Shown: piece after piece, positions 769 to 35,993 of the stretch | How the letters are laid out: each line of letters begins with the position of its first letter | Position numbering within the stretch: the stretch's first letter is position 1 | Assembly (NCBI RefSeq): GCF_900112755.1 | Contig: NZ_FOMW01000011.1 | Coordinates: 1-64,000, forward strand | Direction of reading: 5' to 3' | Source of the DNA: Sulfitobacter brevis | GTDB lineage: Bacteria > Pseudomonadota > Alphaproteobacteria > Rhodobacterales > Rhodobacteraceae | DNA: 64,000 nucleotides | Program-made: the position numbers and the translations under genes | The notes under the pieces: model-generated | The model's input: only the letters and a program-made list of their open reading frames with translations | Database searches by the model: none | Told to the model about the DNA's origin: nothing

Positions 769-3700
769 TCAGGGGCTTACCCTCACTTTGAAAGAAACGC
801 TGCCCTCTGCTCCCGCCCCATGACTACCGGAACAATCCCATCGCAGCGGACCAATATAGCCCAAAAAGTTTGTTCCGGGATCGGCCACCGAACATACCAG
901 TGTCGGGCCGACATTAACGGGGGTGCTAATCACCTCTGCCAGTTCCGAATAAGGCGGCGTACGGTCATGTATCGATATACCCGATGCCACATCCCGGCTG
1001 GGATTGATAATCGTGATCCGGTAAACCAACACATCGCCAGGCAAAGCGCTGTTGGAATATCCTTCGAGCGTATTTTGCGTTTCATTGCGCACGGTTTTAA
1101 CCAACACAAGCTGCCCGCCGCCGACCTCGACCGTTACGCGATCCTGATTGAAGATCGCATGGCTGACCGTGGTTCCAGTAAACTGGGTCGCCGCTTCCAG
1201 CTTATATGCCAGCACACTTCCTGGCGGCAGTCCTCCCCCCGATGAAACCCGCGATATCAGACAAAGCTGCTCGCCGACCTGGACCACAGTTGGATCATTC
1301 AGCGGCTGGTCCGGATTGCCGTCACAATCGCTGTCCAGAAACAGCGCGACCGAAAATGCCCCAACCGACGGCTGTGTCACCTCTGTATAAGCGAAACTGA
1401 CTGTTCCCGAGCTACGTGCGCGGTAGAGATGGGGCAAAAGCGCAATTTGTCCGGCTCCGATACTTGCTTCGCGATGTTCGCTCAATGTTGGCAACGGAAT
1501 TACGCCTAAATTCAAATCACTGTAATTGGTGCCCGATGCTGGCGTAAAGCTGTACGTGCCATCGTGCGGGTCAGTATTCACCAGGCCCGGCAAGGCACCG
1601 GGAGCTTCGGATATCGCCCGCCATCCTTCTGCTGCACTAACCGAAACGGTGAGATCGCCCGTATATCCAGCCGCGAGGGAATAAGACCACCGACCGTTCG
1701 CATCCAAAACAGGGTTGGCTAGCAGCGCACCGCTGTCATCCATGAGCAAAATTGATCCCTTGCTGGTTCCGCTTTCGCCCCCCGTTGCCAGCCCGTCATG
1801 CGCCGTGCCTCCTCCCGCGCCATTGTCACGGATCAACCGCCCCGAGATCAGGCTCGCGGTCGTGGCCAGTTCAATCGTGACAAAGGCTTCGTCATCATCC
1901 GCAATGCCATCGCTCAGGTCGTCCACCTGCAAGCCCACTGCGGGATCACTGTCCAGATCGGGCAAGGAACTCGCGGTGATCTCAGCCACGTTGGTATAAT
2001 CGCCCCCTGCCGTGACGCGTACCCGGACCGTGAGAGTCTCTGTCGCACCTGACAGTATTTCGTCAACGAACCACTCGCCGGTTCCGGGGTCGTAATAATC
2101 GCCCGTTGGCGGCGCCGTATCGCTGATATAGGCAAATCCGGACGGAATACGCTCGATCACCCGCACGCTCGAGGGGGAGCCCGGGCCGGAGTTCGTCACA
2201 CTCACCACCCAGTCAATCACGTCCCCGACCACGGCCGTGGTCACCGGAGATGTCGTCCCTGCCTGAAACGCCTCTTTGGTAATCGAAAGATCCGAATTTT
2301 GTGGATCAAATCCGAAATCGCGCGCAACGGTGAAGCTGTTTGTATCCGCCGTGACCCCGACAAGCGGGTTCGAGGTCCCGATCTGCGATCCGGGAGGCAA
2401 GTCGGGGTCATTCACATCGACCTCTACCCGATATGTGGCGCCGGCAGGTAGACCGACAAAGGCGTAAGTTCCGTCAGTCTCGGTATCTGTTGTGCGCAAA
2501 AAGCTATCGTCGCTCAGGTCATTCGGGGTGCCATTGTCGGAATAGAGATCGACCGCGATACCGCCACCCAGATTAATTTCCCCTACATCTTTGACGTCCG
2601 ATGCGTTCTGGTCGATATAAATGTTGCCGCCAAAACCGGAGAGCGCGAAAGGCGTGCCGCCCCGACAAGATGCACCATCGCTGAACCCGCCCTCCTCCGG
2701 TCCTGTTGCCAATCTCAATCGATTTCCGCTTGTTGTATCAATAAGATAGATCGCGTTGCTGTCTTCTTCGTAGGCGTACATCCTGCCATTCTCATCGAAG
2801 AATACCGCCGACCAGATGCCCGTGTAATCTGCCGGTCCAAACTCGATCACCGTTGCCAAACCTGCGACTCCGTTGTTGGCAAATACCCGAAATACCCGGC
2901 CAGTGTCTTCGTTGATCCCATAGATGAAACCGTCCAGCGGGTTGACCGCGAAATCCGACACAGTAACGGTTTGAGACAACGCAAGCTGCCCTGCGTCGAG
3001 CGGGTTCGACGGGTCGGTCAGGTCCAGCAACTGCCATGTGACACCATCCACCTCATAGACCAAAATTCCGTTCGTTAGAACATCCCCGGCGTCCTCACCT
3101 CGGTCAGCGCTGCCTGGGAAATTGGGCATTTCGGTAAACTCTCCGGCGCCATCCACGCGCCACAGCTCGTCCTTACCGGGGCGCACACCGTAGATGTATC
3201 CATCCAGCTCGTTGTATCCCCACCCCGCCTCCAAGACGCGCGGCGCGGTGCCGAACGTTTGCAAATTCATCGCATAGCCCGCGCCGGTATCGGTAAACCC
3301 AATTTTGCGTAGTTGGTTCGGATCATCCGCAAGCAGGTAGAGGCCGCTGTCGCAAGAGACCGGAGGAACGTCACCCGAAATGGTGGTCAAATAGTCCTCC
3401 ACTTCCCCATCAAGGGCGACCGGCACCACACCTTCTGTGGTCGACCAGCGGAACCGCGCGAAGGTTGGCGTCAGCACCGATGTCGCGGGGACCGAAACGT
3501 CAAACCGGATTTCGCCGTTCAAGACCCCGTCTTTGTCGCCCGCACTGCCATCCTGTAGGTTCGTGGCGATTTGATCGGAAGCATCAAAAGTGCCATTGCC
3601 ATCGAAATCAATCCAGGCCTGCAAATATGCAATCCCGCCCGTGATACCACCGACACCGCCGGTCACCTCGTTAACGACCACCACTACCTCAGTAGTGCCG

Positions 3701-6624
3701 CCTGCAAAAAATTGCGGCAGAACCACCCCGTCTTCGTCATCGTTGCCATCAAGGTCATCCCCCGAGGCATCGGGTGAGGCCTGTGAGGCCGCTTCAGGGT
3801 CTGGTGATAGCGCGCCCAGATAGGTACCTGCGACCCCTGTTTCGGCAATAATATGCAATGGGTCACCATAGCTCGCCGGAGCATCGCCACGATCGACCAA
3901 GGGGGCTGCGGCGATGTTGATAGGGAAATCTTCAACCTCCCCGTCAGGTGCAGCATCGGCGATCCCCAAGGTCGGCGCAGTCGACCAGCGGAACCGCGCA
4001 AATGTCTGGTCAAGGACCGCATCACCCGGAACGATCACTTCGAACTGGATCAACCCATCGCCCGCCACGGTATCGGCGCCTGTACCATCGTCCTGGAGGT
4101 TTATCGCGATTTCTTCGGCAGTGCCGACGTCCCAAATACTATTGCCATCGTAATCGATCCAAGCGGTAAGGTTGCCCCCCGCACCCTGCACTGTCGCCTC
4201 AATTGTCGCGAGGAAACCCTGAACCAGCGGCGGAATATCAACGCCGTCATCATCATCCGATCCGGCATCGCTGGCATTGCCCGGGCCTGTGTCGCCGGAA
4301 ACTGTTGCGCCCAGGAATACCGTAGCATTCTGCGGCAAAGCATGGAGGGCATCGCCGTAAATTGTGGGGGCATCGGTGAAGTCCGCGCAGGCCTGAATAT
4401 CGGTCAACTGCAGCGATCCCGCGAAACTCGCGCCGTTATACTGGCGGGTGGTATGCGCGATGACAATGCGATCGACGGGTGCGCCGAAACCCACATTTAC
4501 CGCGGAGTTTTCGGCGAGACCGCCGCCTGAAACGCCGTTGTCCCGCTCAGCCAAAACAGATCCGTCGGCATTGGCCACCCGCAGCATACTCACGGCAATC
4601 GAGCCATCTGCGACCGCCGGCTGAACACGGACTCCCCCATTTTCGCCGTAAACGGTCACCGACTCGTCGAAATCCAAGCTTGCGACAAAGAAGCTTACCC
4701 CCCTAAGAGGTGTGTCAAAATTCACCTCTAGCGTCGTGTACTGCTGCGTGAAGAGTGGATTGCCCCCGTATCCGGTAGCGTAAAGCTGATTTGAAGTACC
4801 AATCGAGGCGGGACGAAGGAAGCTTGCGCTTGAATTAGCGGATGCGATCACGGTACCGTTGATACCGTAGCGACCGATTGTTGACGTAGCGTCCAAAGCT
4901 CCGGGATGATCATTGGCCCAATCGACGGCAGAGTAAAGACTGCCATTACAAACGGGCAAGGTGTCGGTCGGTTCGGCTGTCACATTGACCGTAACGCTGT
5001 CGGTATCGGCGCCGCCCTCATCGCTCGAGTTGGCTGTATCCGCAGTGATAGTCCCCCCCGACGCCGTGGCAACATAGGCGTCAAATTCGATAGCGCCGCT
5101 GCCTAGTCCATTCAATGTGGGAAGCGTGGCGAATGAAAAGATACCAGGCCCCGGGTTCACCGCAGGCCGTATATCCGCGCCAGTGACCACACGGAAATTG
5201 TCGGTCCCGGAGATCTCTGCGGGAAGGGTCGCAGTGGTCTGGATGTTGGTCATCGGGCTGAGCGATGTGTTCACATAACTCACCCGATAGGTCAGCGTTG
5301 CGCCTTGGGGGATCGCGCCACCGCTGTAGGGCGCGCCATTGACTGCGGAGACGGTGATCGAGACGAAAAGGTCATCAGGGCCTGCTGGCGAAACCGCGGA
5401 AGTCCCCGCAACCCAATAACGCCAAGGGTTGTCATTCCCTGCAGCCGCCCCTTCGGCCGAATCGCCGCCGTGGCCTTCGGCGTTAAAATGGCCGATGGCA
5501 TCAAGATCGGTAATTTTCACCTCCATCGTGGCGTAATACGTTTCTCCCTGCGCGATGCCGCCAAAGGCGTACCGCACCGCGTTTGTATCCACGGGAAGCA
5601 CCGCAGCGGTGCTGCTGTTCAGCGCGAATCCCGCCGTCGTTTCTGTACAAACTTCGACGGTGTTTACGCCCGGGTCCAAGGCTTCGGGAAAGACTGATCC
5701 TGCGCCGGTCGCCGGTCCGTCAGGACCTGCCAAAAGCGGGTCGTTCGCCTCACAGGAACTGGGATAGCTTATCCGGTTCCATGGCCCGGTTGTGCCGTAG
5801 CGATCCCAATCAGCACCCGACTCTGGCCCCGCGACCGGGCTGCCTGCCCTGAACGGAGTTGCCCCGCGGCCGCCGGTGATGGTGGTTTCTTCAGCAGCCG
5901 AAAAGCCGTTTGGGTCGATGGTGCCGCCTGAGCCGAAGGCATTGATCTGCACGGCGTCCCATTTGTTATGCACACGCGGCGTCCCTGTGCCGCCAACGCT
6001 GGGCCAAGGTGCTCCGTTGGTCGGGTTGACCAAATAGCCGTTTTGAAGGGTCGCGATGGTCGAGCCATTGGCAAACAGCGCAGTATCGGACCGGTTGGAA
6101 TAGAAAATCCCCGTGTCGCCGTAAGTATAGGCAAGACCCGCATTGCAATTGGCAATCGAATATCCCGCAGCTTGGCACTGAGCCGTATCAGACGGATCCC
6201 AGCCATTTGCTGAAATATCAAAGACTTGTTGCCCTTTCGGCCCCCACCCTTTGGACACACCCGACCCAGTGGATGCGCGGGCCGGACGCGCATCCAGCGC
6301 GTTGCCTGCGACATCGGTAATGTAAGTGCTAACGACTTGGGTCCCCGCAGGCACATAAAGCGTAGAGTAACCGCCCGGCCCGTCCAAAGTGCCTTCGGCA
6401 ATGACAGGAAAATCGGCAATCACCGTCAGGCTGTCACCGACCTCGATCGGGGGCAGTCCAGCGGCCATTTTATCCGCGATGAGCTGTCGAGACGCAGGTG
6501 TAAGTGCGATGCCGCCCCCGCCCAGCCACGCGCCATGGGCGAAGACACCGACAGAGAGACAGAGCCATAACAACGCGCCCAACAGGATATGCGATCCACG
6601 GCGGCAAAAATTGGCATTTTTCAT
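769..6624 (-). CDS. Giant secreted multidomain protein (DUF11 / GEVED / SdrD-B-like)
   Basis: A protein of 1951 residues with an N-terminal signal peptide (basic start, hydrophobic residues about 12-28, AHG). Domains in approximate order: a unique N-terminal region with AHGAWLGGGG; a DUF11-type beta-sandwich around 415-550; two repeats of about 150 residues ending in DGEVEDF (near 900) and DGEVEDY (near 1078), typical of GEVED domains with Asp-rich calcium-binding-like loops; a repeat region with ELDGYIYGV and NPLDGFIYGI, about 1090-1325, resembling a DUF6923-type propeller; an SdrD B-like module at about 1332-1410; and DUF11 modules near 1437-1600 and 1835-1910. No LPXTG, PEP-CTERM or autotransporter end is visible, so the secretion route is unclear. 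Such proteins are inferred to be adhesins or matrix components. The RBS (GAGA, 8 nt from ATG) is weak. Confidence 0.85.
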   Translation of the reverse strand: MKNANFCRRGSHILLGALLWLCLSVGVFAHGAWLGGGGIALTPASRQLIADKMAAGLPPIEVGDSLTVIADFPVIAEGTLDGPGGYSTLYVPAGTQVVSTYITDVAGNALDARPARASTGSGVSKGWGPKGQQVFDISANGWDPSDTAQCQAAGYSIANCNAGLAYTYGDTGIFYSNRSDTALFANGSTIATLQNGYLVNPTNGAPWPSVGGTGTPRVHNKWDAVQINAFGSGGTIDPNGFSAAEETTITGGRGATPFRAGSPVAGPESGADWDRYGTTGPWNRISYPSSCEANDPLLAGPDGPATGAGSVFPEALDPGVNTVEVCTETTAGFALNSSTAAVLPVDTNAVRYAFGGIAQGETYYATMEVKITDLDAIGHFNAEGHGGDSAEGAAAGNDNPWRYWVAGTSAVSPAGPDDLFVSITVSAVNGAPYSGGAIPQGATLTYRVSYVNTSLSPMTNIQTTATLPAEISGTDNFRVVTGADIRPAVNPGPGIFSFATLPTLNGLGSGAIEFDAYVATASGGTITADTANSSDEGGADTDSVTVNVTAEPTDTLPVCNGSLYSAVDWANDHPGALDATSTIGRYGINGTVIASANSSASFLRPASIGTSNQLYATGYGGNPLFTQQYTTLEVNFDTPLRGVSFFVASLDFDESVTVYGENGGVRVQPAVADGSIAVSMLRVANADGSVLAERDNGVSGGGLAENSAVNVGFGAPVDRIVIAHTTRQYNGASFAGSLQLTDIQACADFTDAPTIYGDALHALPQNATVFLGATVSGDTGPGNASDAGSDDDDGVDIPPLVQGFLATIEATVQGAGGNLTAWIDYDGNSIWDVGTAEEIAINLQDDGTGADTVAGDGLIQFEVIVPGDAVLDQTFARFRWSTAPTLGIADAAPDGEVEDFPINIAAAPLVDRGDAPASYGDPLHIIAETGVAGTYLGALSPDPEAASQASPDASGDDLDGNDDEDGVVLPQFFAGGTTEVVVVVNEVTGGVGGITGGIAYLQAWIDFDGNGTFDASDQIATNLQDGSAGDKDGVLNGEIRFDVSVPATSVLTPTFARFRWSTTEGVVPVALDGEVEDYLTTISGDVPPVSCDSGLYLLADDPNQLRKIGFTDTGAGYAMNLQTFGTAPRVLEAGWGYNELDGYIYGVRPGKDELWRVDGAGEFTEMPNFPGSADRGEDAGDVLTNGILVYEVDGVTWQLLDLTDPSNPLDAGQLALSQTVTVSDFAVNPLDGFIYGINEDTGRVFRVFANNGVAGLATVIEFGPADYTGIWSAVFFDENGRMYAYEEDSNAIYLIDTTSGNRLRLATGPEEGGFSDGASCRGGTPFALSGFGGNIYIDQNASDVKDVGEINLGGGIAVDLYSDNGTPNDLSDDSFLRTTDTETDGTYAFVGLPAGATYRVEVDVNDPDLPPGSQIGTSNPLVGVTADTNSFTVARDFGFDPQNSDLSITKEAFQAGTTSPVTTAVVGDVIDWVVSVTNSGPGSPSSVRVIERIPSGFAYISDTAPPTGDYYDPGTGEWFVDEILSGATETLTVRVRVTAGGDYTNVAEITASSLPDLDSDPAVGLQVDDLSDGIADDDEAFVTIELATTASLISGRLIRDNGAGGGTAHDGLATGGESGTSKGSILLMDDSGALLANPVLDANGRWSYSLAAGYTGDLTVSVSAAEGWRAISEAPGALPGLVNTDPHDGTYSFTPASGTNYSDLNLGVIPLPTLSEHREASIGAGQIALLPHLYRARSSGTVSFAYTEVTQPSVGAFSVALFLDSDCDGNPDQPLNDPTVVQVGEQLCLISRVSSGGGLPPGSVLAYKLEAATQFTGTTVSHAIFNQDRVTVEVGGGQLVLVKTVRNETQNTLEGYSNSALPGDVLVYRITIINPSRDVASGISIHDRTPPYSELAEVISTPVNVGPTLVCSVADPGTNFLGYIGPLRWDCSGSHGAGAEGSVSFKVRVSP

Positions 6625-7050
6625 CAGGTTCTCTCATTGCCGCTATAGGTCCGGTTGCCCGAGGATCACGCAACATCGTCCGCTATACCTGCGCGTCGCC
6701 ACGAGGTGAATCAGACGTACGCACCCCATTGGTCTAAACGGACAAGGTTAATGAAAAACTTAGCGGCTATTTGCTAATTGTTCTTCGAACCTTATGGGGC
6801 ATAGCCTTATCTCATTAGGTTAGGCTGCCTATCCTTAGGGTGGGGCATGAGCGAGATGACCGGCGCGCTTTTAGCAGGCAGCGGTCCGTCTCTGTGGCTG
6901 CTTGCCGACGATCTCGGCAGCACAGGGCGCAATCATAAGTTGTATTATTTACATCCGATCACAGCTCGTCAATCGGCAATTTTTCACAAATGGAGCGACA
7001 TTTCCTCGCCGGTTCAATGGCGCTGGTCATGCCGGTGGTATAAACGAAAA
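6625..7050. other. Intergenic region upstream of the giant secreted-protein gene
   Basis: About 430 bp between the giant gene start and the parB terminator. It must contain the leftward promoter of the giant gene. The part from about 6735 to 6835 is AT-richer than its surroundings and the most likely promoter zone, but no convincing -35/-10 pair stands out. Short open frames here lack ribosome binding sites. No repeats of note were seen. Confidence 0.4.
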
Positions 7051-7070
7051 AGGTTCCCCGCAGGGAACCT
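7046..7070 (-). terminator. Rho-independent terminator of parB built on a near-parS palindrome
   Basis: On the minus strand the stem AGGTTCCC / GGGAACCT with a short loop is followed directly by TTTTTCG, 36 bp after the parB stop. The core 7053-7068, GTTCCCCGCAGGGAAC, differs by one base from the palindrome found three times in and before parAB. It may therefore serve both as terminator and as a fourth, weaker ParB site. Confidence 0.75.
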
Positions 7071-7105
7071 CTCCTTGTCTTGCCCGCTTCTGGCCCGAAT
7101 AGAGT

Positions 7106-8227
7106 CTAACCATCGGATTTGAGCCTGTCCAAGAAGGCCTCAACTGCTGACTGAAGGCGCGCTTTGCTGTGGGCCGAAAAATCCTGCTCCAACCGCAATT
7201 CAATCCGACCATCTTCCGCTGTGACCTTAACCTCACCTTCACGATGTGTGAGCTTAATGGTAGTCTTAGAGACTGCTCTACTTCCCTCAAGGCCGCGCTT
7301 TTGGCTAACGCATGCCTTGAGGATACCAAGCTCTTGCGCCGCGTCACGGTCGGGTGCCTTATCAAGTGCTGCAATCATCGCGACAGCTTTCTGAGCGTCG
7401 GATTCCAAAGCTTTGCATAGTCCCAAGCCGACAGCCCGTGGCCAGCTTTCGGCAAAACGCACCCTGCCCTGCAGCTCACCCAACACCTTGGCAAATTGCC
7501 GAATGTAGCTCCGCTTTTGCTTAAGAGCGGAAGCATAGAGAACGCTCACGGCTTCACCGGAATCAATCTGCGCGTCTTTTGCGTATGCCATGGCTAACTG
7601 CGCCATTTCACCAAACGACAGGTCTTTACGCACCAGGTTTTCGTCAACCATTTTCCGGTAAAGATCCACGAGCGGTTCCCCGCGGGGAACCATAGCCGCC
7701 GGGATACGGGTGTAGCGCGGGTCGCCGGTCTCCTCCGCCAATTCGCGAAATGCCGCCAGCCGGCGGAAACCCTGAATGAGCTCATAACCTTCGGCAGTTT
7801 GCTCGACACGAATCGGGTTGGAGAGACCAACCGCCTGAATAGAGGATTTTAACTCCGCCAGCTCGGGATCAACGTTCGCGGACCTATCGCGCGTCAGCTT
7901 TGCAGTTTGCACCTTCGCTGTCTGGATCAAATCGGTGATCAGTCCGAGCTTCTTCAGGCGGACATGCTCATGAGCCAGCGCGTCGTTCTCGGCGCGGATC
8001 GCAAGTTCAGCCGCCGCGCGCTCGGCGGTGGCATCAGCCGTTTCAGAGATTGCAGACGCCATAGGCCCGCGTCGCGCAGGCGGCGGGCTATCGTTCTGCA
8101 GGGGGTGGCCCTGTATATAAAACGACTTGGTCTCGGGTGCAGGCTCGTTCCCCGCGGGGAACCCCTGCTGTTCGACGCCCTCTTCAAGTTCGAAATCAAT
8201 GTCAAATATGCTGCGTTTCTTTGCCAT
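7106..8227 (-). CDS. parB: ParB/RepB-family partition protein
   Basis: 373 residues. The start MAKKRSIFDIDFELEEG resembles the N-terminal ParA-contact segment of plasmid ParB/RepB proteins. A ParB N-domain follows (about 125-200) with ELIQGFRRLAAFREL as the box II-like motif and VDENLVRKDLSFGEMAQLAMAY as the beginning of the helix-turn-helix. The C-terminal region (about 320-373) would be the dimerisation part. It binds centromere sites and works with ParA to segregate the replicon. The gene lies 3 bp behind parA, so it is translationally coupled. Two perfect 16-bp palindromes lie inside its coding sequence and are read in different frames (FPAGNE at about residue 22 and VPRGE at about 180), which argues that they are kept as DNA sites. 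This is a DnaA-like-replicon type pair, not part of a repABC operon. Confidence 0.9.
   Translation of the reverse strand: MAKKRSIFDIDFELEEGVEQQGFPAGNEPAPETKSFYIQGHPLQNDSPPPARRGPMASAISETADATAERAAAELAIRAENDALAHEHVRLKKLGLITDLIQTAKVQTAKLTRDRSANVDPELAELKSSIQAVGLSNPIRVEQTAEGYELIQGFRRLAAFRELAEETGDPRYTRIPAAMVPRGEPLVDLYRKMVDENLVRKDLSFGEMAQLAMAYAKDAQIDSGEAVSVLYASALKQKRSYIRQFAKVLGELQGRVRFAESWPRAVGLGLCKALESDAQKAVAMIAALDKAPDRDAAQELGILKACVSQKRGLEGSRAVSKTTIKLTHREGEVKVTAEDGRIELRLEQDFSAHSKARLQSAVEAFLDRLKSDG
7675..7690. promoter_or_regulatory. parS-type palindrome inside parB (site 2)
   Basis: Perfect 16-bp palindrome GTTCCCCGCGGGGAAC, extended by one matching base on each side. On the coding strand it encodes VPRGE. 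Identical to the copies at 8147 and 9547; the likely role is a ParB binding centromere. Confidence 0.8.
8147..8162. promoter_or_regulatory. parS-type palindrome inside parB (site 3)
   Basis: Perfect copy of GTTCCCCGCGGGGAAC, near the parB start. It is read in another frame than site 2 and encodes FPAGNE, so its conservation is at DNA level. Confidence 0.8.
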
Positions 8228-8230
8228 CTA

Positions 8231-9526
8231 TCAATCCTCCAAAGTGTCCCAGGCTGTCACCAGCGTCCCGCGGAATTCGCCGTAGGCCCGATCAAAAGAC
8301 GCTCGCGCGCGGCGCCATGTTTCTCGCGTCATTTGCCGGTAATCCATCTCGTAGATCGACGACAAAAACCGCCCTGACTGCTCGACCGCACGGGTCATCT
8401 CAATCGGGTGCTCTGTAACATGTGGCTTAAAAACCTGACCAAATGCTTGCTGCATCGCACGGTGCAAATCGTTGTTGGGCTCGAACCGTGTGAGCAAGAA
8501 CCGGATATCGGAGAATGCTTTCTCCGCGCTGGTCCCTTCAGGTAGCCCGCCGCGAAACTTGCCGAGGTCCTCCAGCGCTTCGGACAACTGGCCGATGAAA
8601 CTGGTGGTGCTGTCATATTCCCAGTAGCCGGGACCAGAGGGGATATAGAGCACGTCCGCGGCGAAAACAGCGTTCATAGATTGGTAGCCAATCGCAGGTG
8701 GGCAGTCGAAAATAATGATGTCGTAAGCGTCCGGCGGGATCGCATCAAGGTAACGCGACATGGCGGCGAAGAACGACCATTCGGGGTTAAGATGCCGATA
8801 CTGGGCGCTCGCAAATTCGACGAATGCCGCATTGGCGCAACTTGGCACAAGGTCGATGGTAGGCCAGCTGGTGGGCTTGATAAAATCGGTAATCCGCAAC
8901 GCATTTAAGCCCATGCCGGTCACCGAAGCTGGCAATTGGCGCTGGGGCAGGGCGGTGCCGGATTCAGCGCCGCGCCCCGCAGCATTCATCCGCTCGGTCT
9001 CCTGGATCAGGTCCCGCGCCATGATCCCCCAAACAGTGAACTCCTCCGACACATCGCTGAGCCCCATCGAGTGGCTGAGGGTGGCTTGTGGATCAAAATC
9101 CACTGCCAACACGCGGTAACCGTCGAGTGCTGCTGCATGGGCAAAGTGAAGGGCCACCGTGGACTTGCCCGCGCCGCCTTTGAAGTTGGCAATCGCGGCC
9201 CGCACAGCGCGCTTACCTGCAGGACGGGGCGGCAAAAGCGGCTGGTTCTTGATCCGCACACGACGGCGCAGCTCGTTAATCTCTTGCAAAGTGTACCAGC
9301 GCTGACGACCATCCTCCTCAACCTCCCCTTCGGGCAAAGAAGGATCGGCGGCCAAACGTCCGCGCAGCGTAGAAGGGTTTATCTTGAATATAAGCTCCGC
9401 AACCTCCCAACTTGAGAAGCGGCGCAGCGTTTTCTCCATCTCCGGAGAATAGGTTTGCTTGCGGATATGCCCCTGCATCTTGAGAGATTGAGACTGGAGC
9501 TTGGCCAGATCGGAATGGGTAAACAT
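8231..9526 (-). CDS. parA: ParA/RepA-family partition ATPase
   Basis: 431 residues. An N-terminal DNA-binding extension (about 30-95, RRFSSWEVAELIFKINPSTLRGRL, MerR-like winged helix) precedes the ATPase. The deviant Walker A KGGAGKST lies at 116-123, Walker A' DFDPQ at 143-147, and Walker B IIIFDCPP about 275. This architecture is typical of plasmid RepA/ParA (type Ib-like) proteins, whose N-terminus autorepresses the operon. With ParB it positions and segregates the replicon. It is transcribed with parB, and a perfect parS-type palindrome lies 20 bp upstream of its start, where it could also act as an operator. The divergent DnaA-like initiator lies 515 bp upstream. Confidence 0.92.
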   Translation of the reverse strand: MFTHSDLAKLQSQSLKMQGHIRKQTYSPEMEKTLRRFSSWEVAELIFKINPSTLRGRLAADPSLPEGEVEEDGRQRWYTLQEINELRRRVRIKNQPLLPPRPAGKRAVRAAIANFKGGAGKSTVALHFAHAAALDGYRVLAVDFDPQATLSHSMGLSDVSEEFTVWGIMARDLIQETERMNAAGRGAESGTALPQRQLPASVTGMGLNALRITDFIKPTSWPTIDLVPSCANAAFVEFASAQYRHLNPEWSFFAAMSRYLDAIPPDAYDIIIFDCPPAIGYQSMNAVFAADVLYIPSGPGYWEYDSTTSFIGQLSEALEDLGKFRGGLPEGTSAEKAFSDIRFLLTRFEPNNDLHRAMQQAFGQVFKPHVTEHPIEMTRAVEQSGRFLSSIYEMDYRQMTRETWRRARASFDRAYGEFRGTLVTAWDTLED

Positions 9527-9546
9527 TGGGTGCCTCGTCGCCTGTG

Positions 9547-9562
9547 GTTCCCCGCGGGGAAC
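9547..9562. promoter_or_regulatory. parS-type palindrome upstream of parA (site 4)
   Basis: Perfect GTTCCCCGCGGGGAAC placed 20 bp before the parA start codon. The position fits an operator for autoregulation as well as a centromere. Confidence 0.8.
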
Positions 9563-10041
9563 GGTATCGCCCCCCGACCAGAACGCTAATTACTCTGCTA
9601 TCCTGATTTACGCTGAATTTGCATTTCAAAGAAAGGGCTATATTGTGAAATCTGCAAAAAGCGGCCTCTGCATGAGCACCTATGGATTATAGCGGATCGC
9701 GGCGATCTTCCGATTCGGAAAACTTGGGGGAAAACCTTGGCGATGAGACACTATAATGCGGGACATCCCCTGCGCATCCGCTACACATTGGGGGACAAAT
9801 ACGCCGCATTAAGGGACAGCATGAATGTCCCCCCTTACCTATTATACCTAAATTTTATTCTGATGAGTAAGATCGGGCGAGCCTCAGGCAAACCAGCCCT
9901 TGACAGAATCGGTGTTCAGGACGCAAATCAGGACATGGGGCCGGAAGTGCGTTGGCATTCGCCCCTCAAAGCGATCCAACAAGAGATCACGACCGAGGCG
10001 GCACATCCCTTCTAAAGGCGAAGTGCGAAACGGGGGCAGCT
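9563..10041. other. Probable replication origin region between parA and the DnaA-like initiator
   Basis: About 480 bp without a convincing gene. It contains three direct copies of GGGACA (9760, 9792, 9813) and one inverted copy (TGTCCC at 9826). The last two form the hairpin GGGACA-N7-TGTCCC. An AT-rich stretch follows at about 9838-9865. In roseobacter replicons of this type the origin is expected next to the initiator gene, so these short repeats are candidate initiator sites. The open frame running in from 9952 joins the initiator in frame but has no ribosome binding site. Confidence 0.5.
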
Positions 10042-10722
10042 ATGCTTTCACCAAAACCCGTGGGGCGTCATGCCAGTGCACGGAAGTATGACATCATCAC
10101 CGCACTCGGGGCCTATGCCCTCGCAGGCGGCAAACACGATCACCGACTGGTGCTGCGGTTGATCACTCTGATCACGGCCCGCTACAATTGGGGCCGTGAC
10201 GAACTCGCCGTGGGACAGCGCGAGATTGCGCGTCTGTGGTCAGTGGACGAGCGCACCGTCAAACGCGAGATGGCCAAACTACGGGCGTTGGGATGGCTGG
10301 TGGTGCGGCGCCAGGGTGCACGTGGGCACGTGACAGAGTACCGTATTGATATCGAAGCCCTGCTCGCTAAAACCGAACCGCAATGGGCTGCCGTTGGTCC
10401 CGACTTCGAGATGCGCATGACAGGCACGCCAGAGCCACAACGGGTGGTGCCATTGCCGGTGCGCGGTACGGTGCCCGCACCACAGATCGGCGACGGGTAT
10501 GAATGGCAGTTGGCGCAAGCGGTGCTGCATGCCGAAGATCCGGGGGTCTACGGCAGTTGGCTACACGCGTTAGCTCGGGCCGAGCGGGCAGGGGGACGCC
10601 TGACCTTGCGCGCGCCAAGCCGTTTTCATGGAGCCTATGTGCAGACCCATCTGGCCGCGCGTGTGCTGACAGCGGTGCAGGCGGTCGATAGCGATGTCTC
10701 GGACGTTGTTATCATTTGTTAA
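10042..10722 (+). CDS. DnaA-like plasmid replication initiator
   Basis: 226 residues from the ATG preceded by GGGGGCAG. The N-terminal part MLSPKPVGRHASARKYDI and the segment ARYNWGRDELAVGQREIARLW with SVDERTVKREMAKLRALGWL (about 47-85) form a helix-turn-helix domain. The C-terminal part, YGSWLHALARAERAGGRLTL through RAPSRFHGAYVQTHL, resembles the N-terminal domain of chromosomal DnaA, which gives this family its name. There is no AAA+ domain, as expected for the family. These proteins are known as replicases of roseobacter plasmids and chromids, paired with a parAB operon as seen here. The frame is open upstream to 9952, but the downstream ATG fits known family starts better. Confidence 0.85.
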   Translation: MLSPKPVGRHASARKYDIITALGAYALAGGKHDHRLVLRLITLITARYNWGRDELAVGQREIARLWSVDERTVKREMAKLRALGWLVVRRQGARGHVTEYRIDIEALLAKTEPQWAAVGPDFEMRMTGTPEPQRVVPLPVRGTVPAPQIGDGYEWQLAQAVLHAEDPGVYGSWLHALARAERAGGRLTLRAPSRFHGAYVQTHLAARVLTAVQAVDSDVSDVVIIC

Positions 10723-35251: not shown

Positions 35252-35993
35252 TTCTTGTCTCCTGAACTGACAGCCACGGACATGCATGACTTTCCGGATT
35301 ACTGGAACTGGACGGCTAAAAGTATATGAACCCTAGCCGTCGAAAACTAAACCGCCCCGCGCGAGAGCGATGCGCGTTACCTGCACCGAGTTGGGCAGGC
35401 GTTCAACCCTGCATGGTAGCAAGCGATCCGGTCCAGCGGCTCTAAGTCAGCTCCGAAATTGCGGGGCAGGAACCCCTTTGAGGCAGGCCTGACAAAAAGA
35501 TGCCGCAAAGCACCGCCGCCTGAAAAGCACAGTTCCGCCTTCGAAGCGACTGGCTCAGGCAAATACATTGAAATGATAAATTGACAATACTTACAACGCT
35601 CTAGGTAAAATTATCCACAAACGGCGACTCATTTTAGTCGCAAATCAGCATGCGTTCCACTGTTTCAGCTTTCTGAATAATTCCCCACGGGGAAGTTTTT
35701 TGTTGCCCTTGTCGAAATTTGAACACATTTAGGAATGATACAAAGCATGGCTTCAATGCCTCGGGATGATGGGTTTTTTACCTTCAACCTTTCCGCCAGA
35801 AGGCGAACAGCTTTCCTGCGCCCTTGTATGGCCGCAGCCCTGAAAGTGGATCAGCAGCCTATGCTGATATGCATACATGACCCCTGCCGCCCTCGCGGAT
35901 GACCTGACCGGTATCGACCGGCAAGCCAAGCTGATGCAGGGCCGATCGCGCCATTGCGGCGGGATCGGCGTGGGCTTCGCGAGCTTGGGGAAG
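35252..35993. other. Long intergenic region with DnaA box, palindromes and candidate small RNA
   Basis: About 740 bp divergent region. A perfect DnaA box TTATCCACA lies at 35611-35619. TTGACA (35581-35586) is a perfect -35 element on the plus strand with a weak -10 (TAGGTA or TAAAAT, 35602-35611). Downstream are hairpins GCGACT-N6-AGTCGC (35624-35641) and TTCCC-CACG-GGGAA with TTTTTT (35681-35700). Frames crossing the region on the minus strand lack RBSs. It would also contain promoters for both neighbours. Confidence 0.45.
35616..35702 (+). ncRNA. Candidate small RNA ending at a U-run hairpin
   Basis: A promoter-like TTGACA at 35581, a first hairpin at 35624-35641 and a terminator-like hairpin with TTTTTT at 35681-35700 delimit a possible transcript of about 85 nt on the plus strand. 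No open frame with an RBS is inside. The -10 element is weak. Confidence 0.3.

Follow-up and report, generated by a model that had tools for sequence, protein, structure and literature searches.

Probable parS sites of a DnaA-like-I partition operon in Sulfitobacter brevis, two of them within parB

Known partition sites and the palindromes of the S. brevis operon

DnaA-like replicons, defined by Petersen et al. in 2011 (Mol Biol Evol), reportedly carry conserved palindromes in the DnaA-like module that are likely centromeric anchors. We analysed a stretch of 64,000 nucleotides from Sulfitobacter brevis (contig NZ_FOMW01000011.1, positions 1 to 64,000; hereafter the window), in which four copies of a 16-bp palindrome lie in and around a parA-parB operon. 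Based on sequence comparisons we propose, with a probability of about 0.92, that these palindromes serve as parS (centromere) sites for the ParABS system of a DnaA-like-I replicon, presumably one of low copy number. A first interpretation of the window, made without database searches (the sequence-only reading), had also taken them for centromere sites, and we agree that they are very probably parS of this ParB.

For repABC replicons a parS consensus, GTTNNCNGCNGNNAAC, has been printed (PMC9040568), and all four window sites fit it. The same source places repABC parS also inside open reading frames, with the 5' end of repB among the places listed for Rhizobiales, as in the window parB; in Rhodobacterales repABC replicons the sites tend to sit between repB and repC and after repC. 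The window replicon differs in having no repC. The palindromes of compatibility groups 1 and 2 of Rhodobacteraceae repABC replicons differ by one symmetric base exchange (PMC5613091). In Bacillus subtilis, parS-359 lies within parB (PMC4442127). A parS in parB is common to its chromosomal ParABS system and the window, with one in-gene site there versus two here. The B. subtilis parS sequence differs from that of the window. Given the B. subtilis and Rhizobiales cases, the sequence-only reading went too far in calling sites inside the gene of the binding protein an unusual arrangement.

DnaA-like-I plasmids of Rhodobacterales share the gene order of the window, with the replicase divergent from parA-parB, and two of them, pDSM14862_b and pDSM110277_c, carry the identical 16-mer. 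Beyond this background, we worked out four sister forms of the palindrome (here called words), a correlation of these words with ParB residue 236, and an apparent rewriting in place of the sites in coding DNA. A literature search on the strings CCCCGCGGGG and TCCCCGCGGGGA returned no plasmid-partition paper among the matches listed. We regard the locus as a well-supported further case of a familiar element, the freshest part of which would be the correspondence of four parS words to one ParB residue and the in-place rewriting.

The operon is encoded on the minus strand, with parA at 8231..9526 and parB at 7106..8227. The palindrome GTTCCCCGCGGGGAAC occurs in three perfect copies and a fourth copy, GTTCCCCGCAGGGAAC, has one mismatch; our window and genome scans bear out these positions and the mismatch, all of which the sequence-only reading had given. 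Copy 1 (9547..9562) lies 20 bp upstream of the parA start (9526). Copy 2 (8147..8162) occupies parB codons 22-27 (G-F-P-A-G-N), within an N-terminal tail that is predicted to be disordered, and copy 3 (7675..7690) occupies codons 180-185 (V-P-R-G-E-P), where a strand ends ahead of helix 186-200. Copy 4 (7053..7068), whose mismatch is central, lies 37 bp downstream of the parB stop. The sites, to which no strand is assigned, span 2.5 kb of the operon, with two inside parB and none inside parA.

Allowing up to three mismatches to GTTCCCCGCGGGGAAC, the window holds five matches versus 0.68 expected (100 shuffles, largest count 3); the fifth, at 35680, has three mismatches and is within chance. 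The 16-mer is not equally frequent elsewhere in the genome, a finding by which the sequence-only reading had agreed to be judged: in the 4.24 Mb, no match with at most one mismatch was found beyond the four sites on this contig (C26), and allowing two mismatches adds a single palindrome, GTGCCCCGCGGGGCAC, at C20:15043. Of 394 genomes of the family, seven contain the exact 16-mer and none contains the reversed control sequence. Six of the seven (G000, G105, G107, G245, G341 and G161) have copies grouped on the contig that carries the ParB relative. In G105 one more copy is on a different contig, and one of its six is missing from the listed positions; G106 has a single copy, elsewhere. In close relatives (two complete plasmids and six genomes) no perfect copy lies outside the par region, taken to about 0.7 kb past parB, and a few one-mismatch copies do. 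The excess in the window, the rarity across the genome and the comparison with the reversed control lead us to reject a chance repeat.

Sister words of the palindrome and ParB residue 236

We compared the window with 80 loci from relatives. These share a common core, TCCCCGCGGGGA, flanked by one of four outer dinucleotides: GT (word A, 23 loci including the window), TG (word B, 18), CT (word C, 24) and TT (word D, 12, a count that includes L072, which rests on a single site). Close relatives of the window locus retain word A at matching places, and most of the more distant ones have one of the three sister words. One word per locus tends to hold, as 598 of 652 arms match the majority of their locus (1000 shuffles: mean 280, maximum 302). 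The sister words B, C and D fall outside the repABC consensus.

Site placement was scored in the 74 complete loci, 22 of them word A, counting a site as own-word when at least one arm fits. Such a site lies upstream of parA in 60/74 loci (19/22 for word A), inside parA in 47/74 (just 1/22 for word A) and within 250 bp after parB in 54/74. Sites inside parB, whose recurrence in relatives the sequence-only reading had left as something to look for, are found in 60/74 loci over the four words and in 22/22 of word A. Sites are thus spread across the entire partition region, in coding and non-coding DNA alike. The same reading had seen in the parB copies a special tie between partition and gene, a view that does not fit sites that also lie before parA, in parA (in loci with the other words) and after parB; the genes look like convenient DNA beside the nucleation region.

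The number of sites per replicon ranges from 2 to 16 in the loci seen. In three loci with a word B majority the core palindrome occurs 12 (L067), 16 (L081) and 10 times (L106), counted within 3.5 kb of the parB start. At three other loci (L072 and L077, both Donghicola, and L078) the ParBs are of DnaA-like type, the usual parAB sites are missing and two copies each of GTTGACAGCTGTCAAC are present, a sequence printed as the repABC parS of pAMI4 (PMC9040568). These may be composite replicons or may have switched word.

One position of ParB follows the word. Codon 236 of the window parB (7520..7522, minus strand) encodes Lys, the first residue of a helix (236-251) that is predicted to be the recognition helix, and this column fully separates the four words in 69 ParBs (1.94 bits), with Lys in word A, Arg in B, Tyr in C and Pro or Ala in D. 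The next columns are 27 (1.70 bits), which is encoded by a site itself, and 228 (1.63 bits). Position 237, noted by eye, is a possible second specificity position. We applied the rule Lys-A, Arg-B, Tyr-C, Pro-D to ParBs that had not been used to find it, drawn from 94 loci of the same family (77 ParBs after removal of near-copies, 51 of them with a word; 60 of the regions were hand-picked, three of these for carrying the word), and 48 of the 51 fit. Taking both sets together, 116 of 121 ParBs fit.

Residue 236 aligns by hhalign to the Gly of GKSRSH in the chromosomal-type ParB of this genome, which we take to correspond to G170 of Caulobacter ParB (the Gly of GKSR). As in ParB and Noc, a few residues at the interface of the helix-turn-helix with DNA would set the palindrome that is read. 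G170 is among the parS contacts of the Caulobacter protein, and in ParB/Noc four residues were shown experimentally to switch specificity (PMC7383237), whereas in the present family one column correlates, by comparison only.

Copies inside parB and competing explanations

The two copies inside parB are read in different frames, copy 2 from phase 2 of codon 22 (G-FPAGN-E) and copy 3 from phase 0 of codon 180 (VPRGE), as the sequence-only reading had described; it had argued from these frames that the shared sequence serves the DNA. The relatives place that argument on firmer ground. Across 22 word-A parB genes the sites rank first and second among five-codon windows for mean nucleotide identity (0.976 for codons 180-184 and 0.958 for codons 23-27). 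Synonymous positions are frozen, with GTT at codon 180 and GGG at codon 183 in 22/22 genes, TTC in all 21 genes with Phe at codon 23, and AAC at codon 27 in 21/21, while most conserved Val, Gly, Pro and Ala codons outside the sites vary. Codon usage in the window alone gives a weak probability of about 1e-3 per site, and the DNA-level argument therefore rests on the relatives.

The peptide follows the word. Among the aligned ParBs 69 have a word, and 48 of these have an own-word early site; in 47 the site shares one alignment column and frame, although the alignment may itself be drawn to the motif. The site encodes FPAGN in 20/20 ParBs of word A, VPAGT in 12/12 of word B and FPAGK in 15/16 of word C. 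None of the 11 ParBs of these words that lack an own-word early site carries the peptide of its word (one of them, L081, has FPAGT encoded by an off-word core), and none of ten word-D ParBs has an early site or such a peptide. It might be argued instead that the in-gene copies are kept for the protein, as FPAGN and VPRGE motifs, with the DNA match as a by-product, since VPRGE is retained in 21/22 of the word-A ParBs shown. We find this scarcely credible and reject conservation at the protein level as their cause: the synonymous positions are frozen, and the early peptide, which lies in a stretch predicted to be disordered (residues 7-41 have a predicted local distance difference test score, pLDDT, below 50), changes along with the DNA word. 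VPRGE, at a predicted strand end, is absent from the other words, and in the two other-word ParBs with LPRGE (L083 and L112) the palindrome, whole or as a half with the right arm, stands in that frame. The parB copies are kept by selection on DNA.

Two further explanations grant a role to the DNA or RNA and assign it differently. The palindromes could be operators or centromere boxes of ParA, through an N-terminal helix-turn-helix, or of the replicase, rather than of ParB. The RepA-like N-terminal region of ParA and the site directly before parA are in keeping with this; the sites within parB and after it lie far from the promoter, and the best ParA column holds 1.47 bits about the word (76 sequences) versus 1.94 for ParB residue 236, in a comparison confined to ParA and ParB columns. 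With no ParA column near the separation reached by ParB residue 236, ParA is less likely to be the reader of the word, and we consider this explanation very unlikely. Alternatively, the palindromes might function at the RNA level, as hairpins of the parAB message that terminate, attenuate or stabilise it, and copy 4 is the centre of a strong terminator-like hairpin (7047..7074, minus strand; -22.6 kcal/mol, z -3.67) with a 12-bp stem, a four-base loop that holds the mismatch, and a T run. This hairpin is one of three terminator-like sites found, a number not above chance in the scan as a whole (4.5 expected), and TTTT follows within 12 nt in just 18 of the 57 loci that have a site after parB; termination is therefore a local added use at most. 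A hairpin would need no common outer base pair per locus and would leave the match with a residue of the ParB helix unexplained. We thus reject RNA hairpins as the main function, which we judge extremely unlikely, and keep a hairpin as a possible second use of the site at 7053 only.

Several observations weigh against parS sites read through residue 236. The reversed control, with at most one mismatch, matches once in each of two of the eight genomes or plasmid records of close relatives. Three loci (L077, L078 and L087) have no site and a fourth (L108) has no clear word. Outside the sites, parB codon 191 (Arg, CGC 21 times) is frozen like some site codons. The exceptions to the rule are L134 (word A with Arg236), L082 and L139 (word D with Ala), and L072 and L181 (word D with Tyr, one site each). 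Outside the subfamily, Lys or Tyr at 236 occurs with no palindromes or with other ones, such as TTACCCATGGGTAA and TTATCCGCGGATAA. Word and ParB clade largely coincide, the tree needing seven changes of word and six of residue, and independent word-residue pairs are too few for a sign test. Weakly supported branches group two ParBs (L135 and L136; word A, Lys) with those of word C, as if this word-residue pair had arisen twice; a tree that unites all 28 word-A/Lys236 ParBs in one clade is not rejected (approximately unbiased test, p 0.139).

We would give even odds to a one-residue code, in which residue 236 determines the outer base pairs that are recognized in parS (Lys GT, Arg TG, Tyr CT and Pro or Ala TT before TCCCCGCGGGGA). 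When this residue changes, all sites of the replicon, including those in parA and parB, would be rewritten together, and FPAGN, VPAGT and FPAGK would be dictated by the word that is read. Because the link between residue and word is mostly clade-structured, we treat the code as a good hypothesis, not as a result.

From what the sequences hold (the place, rarity and conservation of the sites, the word shared within each locus, the frozen codons and the co-variation of residue 236) we infer the following scheme of binding, spreading, repression and termination. A ParB dimer would read each palindrome through its helix-turn-helix, and the sites would together seed a partition complex that is moved by ParA. 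The copy before parA is likely to be an operator of parAB as well, and probably lets ParB, with ParA, repress the operon; ParB bound 20 bp from the parA start could stand in the way of transcription or translation. In this strain the copy after parB may also serve within a transcription terminator. The copies in parB would be ordinary parS in coding DNA, at positions that the protein can accommodate (a disordered tail and a loop); in a lineage that takes on another parS word, these copies would be rewritten in place like all the others.

The replicon, its neighbours and coexistence

The parB gene encodes a protein of 373 amino acids of the ParB/RepB family, of DnaA-like-I type. Its predicted structure, which is of modest quality (mean pLDDT 76, predicted template-modelling score 0.39), has the cytidine triphosphate domain and helix-turn-helix of ParB, with Foldseek matches to structures of ParB, Noc and KorB (best E 1.4e-7, template-modelling score by target 0.35), including DNA-bound ParB and Noc. 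The Pfam model ParB_N gives 24.7 bits, just under its cut-off of 26.3. ParA (431 amino acids) is an ATPase (AAA_31, E 3e-25) with a RepA-like stretch from residue 12, and parB lies directly downstream. An N-terminal region, here presumed to bind DNA, and a Walker-type AAA ATPase followed by ParB are as in the larger, type Ia-like ParA proteins.

The replicase gene (10042..10722, plus strand) is divergent from parAB, and its DnaA_N match is below the cut-off. Its product is 70% identical over 222 residues to the replicase of pDSM14862_b, which is labelled DnaA-like-I in Table 1 of PMC9025767, and 38% identical over 203 residues to the DnaA-like-II replicase from the strain of that plasmid; we therefore assign the window replicon to the DnaA-like-I type. 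It is not a repABC operon, as the neighbour of parA is this divergent DnaA-like replicase, and the equivalog models of RepA and RepB stay under their cut-offs (208 of 348 and 35 of 201 bits).

Between the replicase and parA (about 9585-9625, in the sense of the minus strand) we identified pieces like CGTAAATC and AATTAGCGTT, which are conserved in many of the word-A loci shown and are possibly promoter, iteron or origin elements. On the other side, adjoining parB, a frame of 1951 codons (769-6624, minus strand) apparently encodes a large exported repeat protein, as judged from its translation.

The source genome has seven ParB-type hits on seven contigs, and the GTTCCCCGCGGGGAAC word is in none of the stretches examined around the other six. 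Two have repeated palindromes of their own, GTTTACAGCTGTAAAC three times on C22 and GTTTCCGGCCGGAAAC twice on C63, and no repeated palindrome was found in the C52 stretch. Single perfect palindromes, which may be chance, occur on C34 (GTTTCACGTGAAAC, one copy, at the chromosomal-type ParB locus), on C18 (GTTACGGCCGTAAC and one more) and on C20. The last of these, GTGCCCCGCGGGGCAC, has the same core as the window palindrome with other arms, and lies about 0.8 kb before a ParB-type match at C20:15837 (L199, L206). The coexisting DnaA-like-II plasmids of S. indolifex and S. pontiacus do not have the DnaA-like-I word within their first 8 kb. No ParB relative turned up in a search of viral contigs.

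A DnaA-like-I ParB is matched at E 1e-75 or better in 98 of the 394 genomes, exactly once in each (at most five candidates were scored per genome). At most one such replicon per cell is thus what we see, as a single compatibility group would lead one to expect, with two in 0/98 genomes though at least four words exist; by our own estimate, random spread would give about ten genomes with two such ParBs. The idea that each word marks its own compatibility group, which would let plasmids with sister words share a cell, is unsupported by these counts, and a sister word alone seems insufficient for coexistence. Replication control may keep DnaA-like-I replicons to one per cell.

These comparisons provide a defined centromere map for a common marine plasmid type, together with a sequence-level prediction of which ParB reads which word. 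The sites within genes offer a clean natural case in which DNA binding, rather than the function of the protein, would dictate the sequence of a protein segment. The correlation at residue 236 bears on the long-standing question of how a centromere of many sites and its binding protein change specificity jointly, which may be tested with four natural pairs of word and residue.

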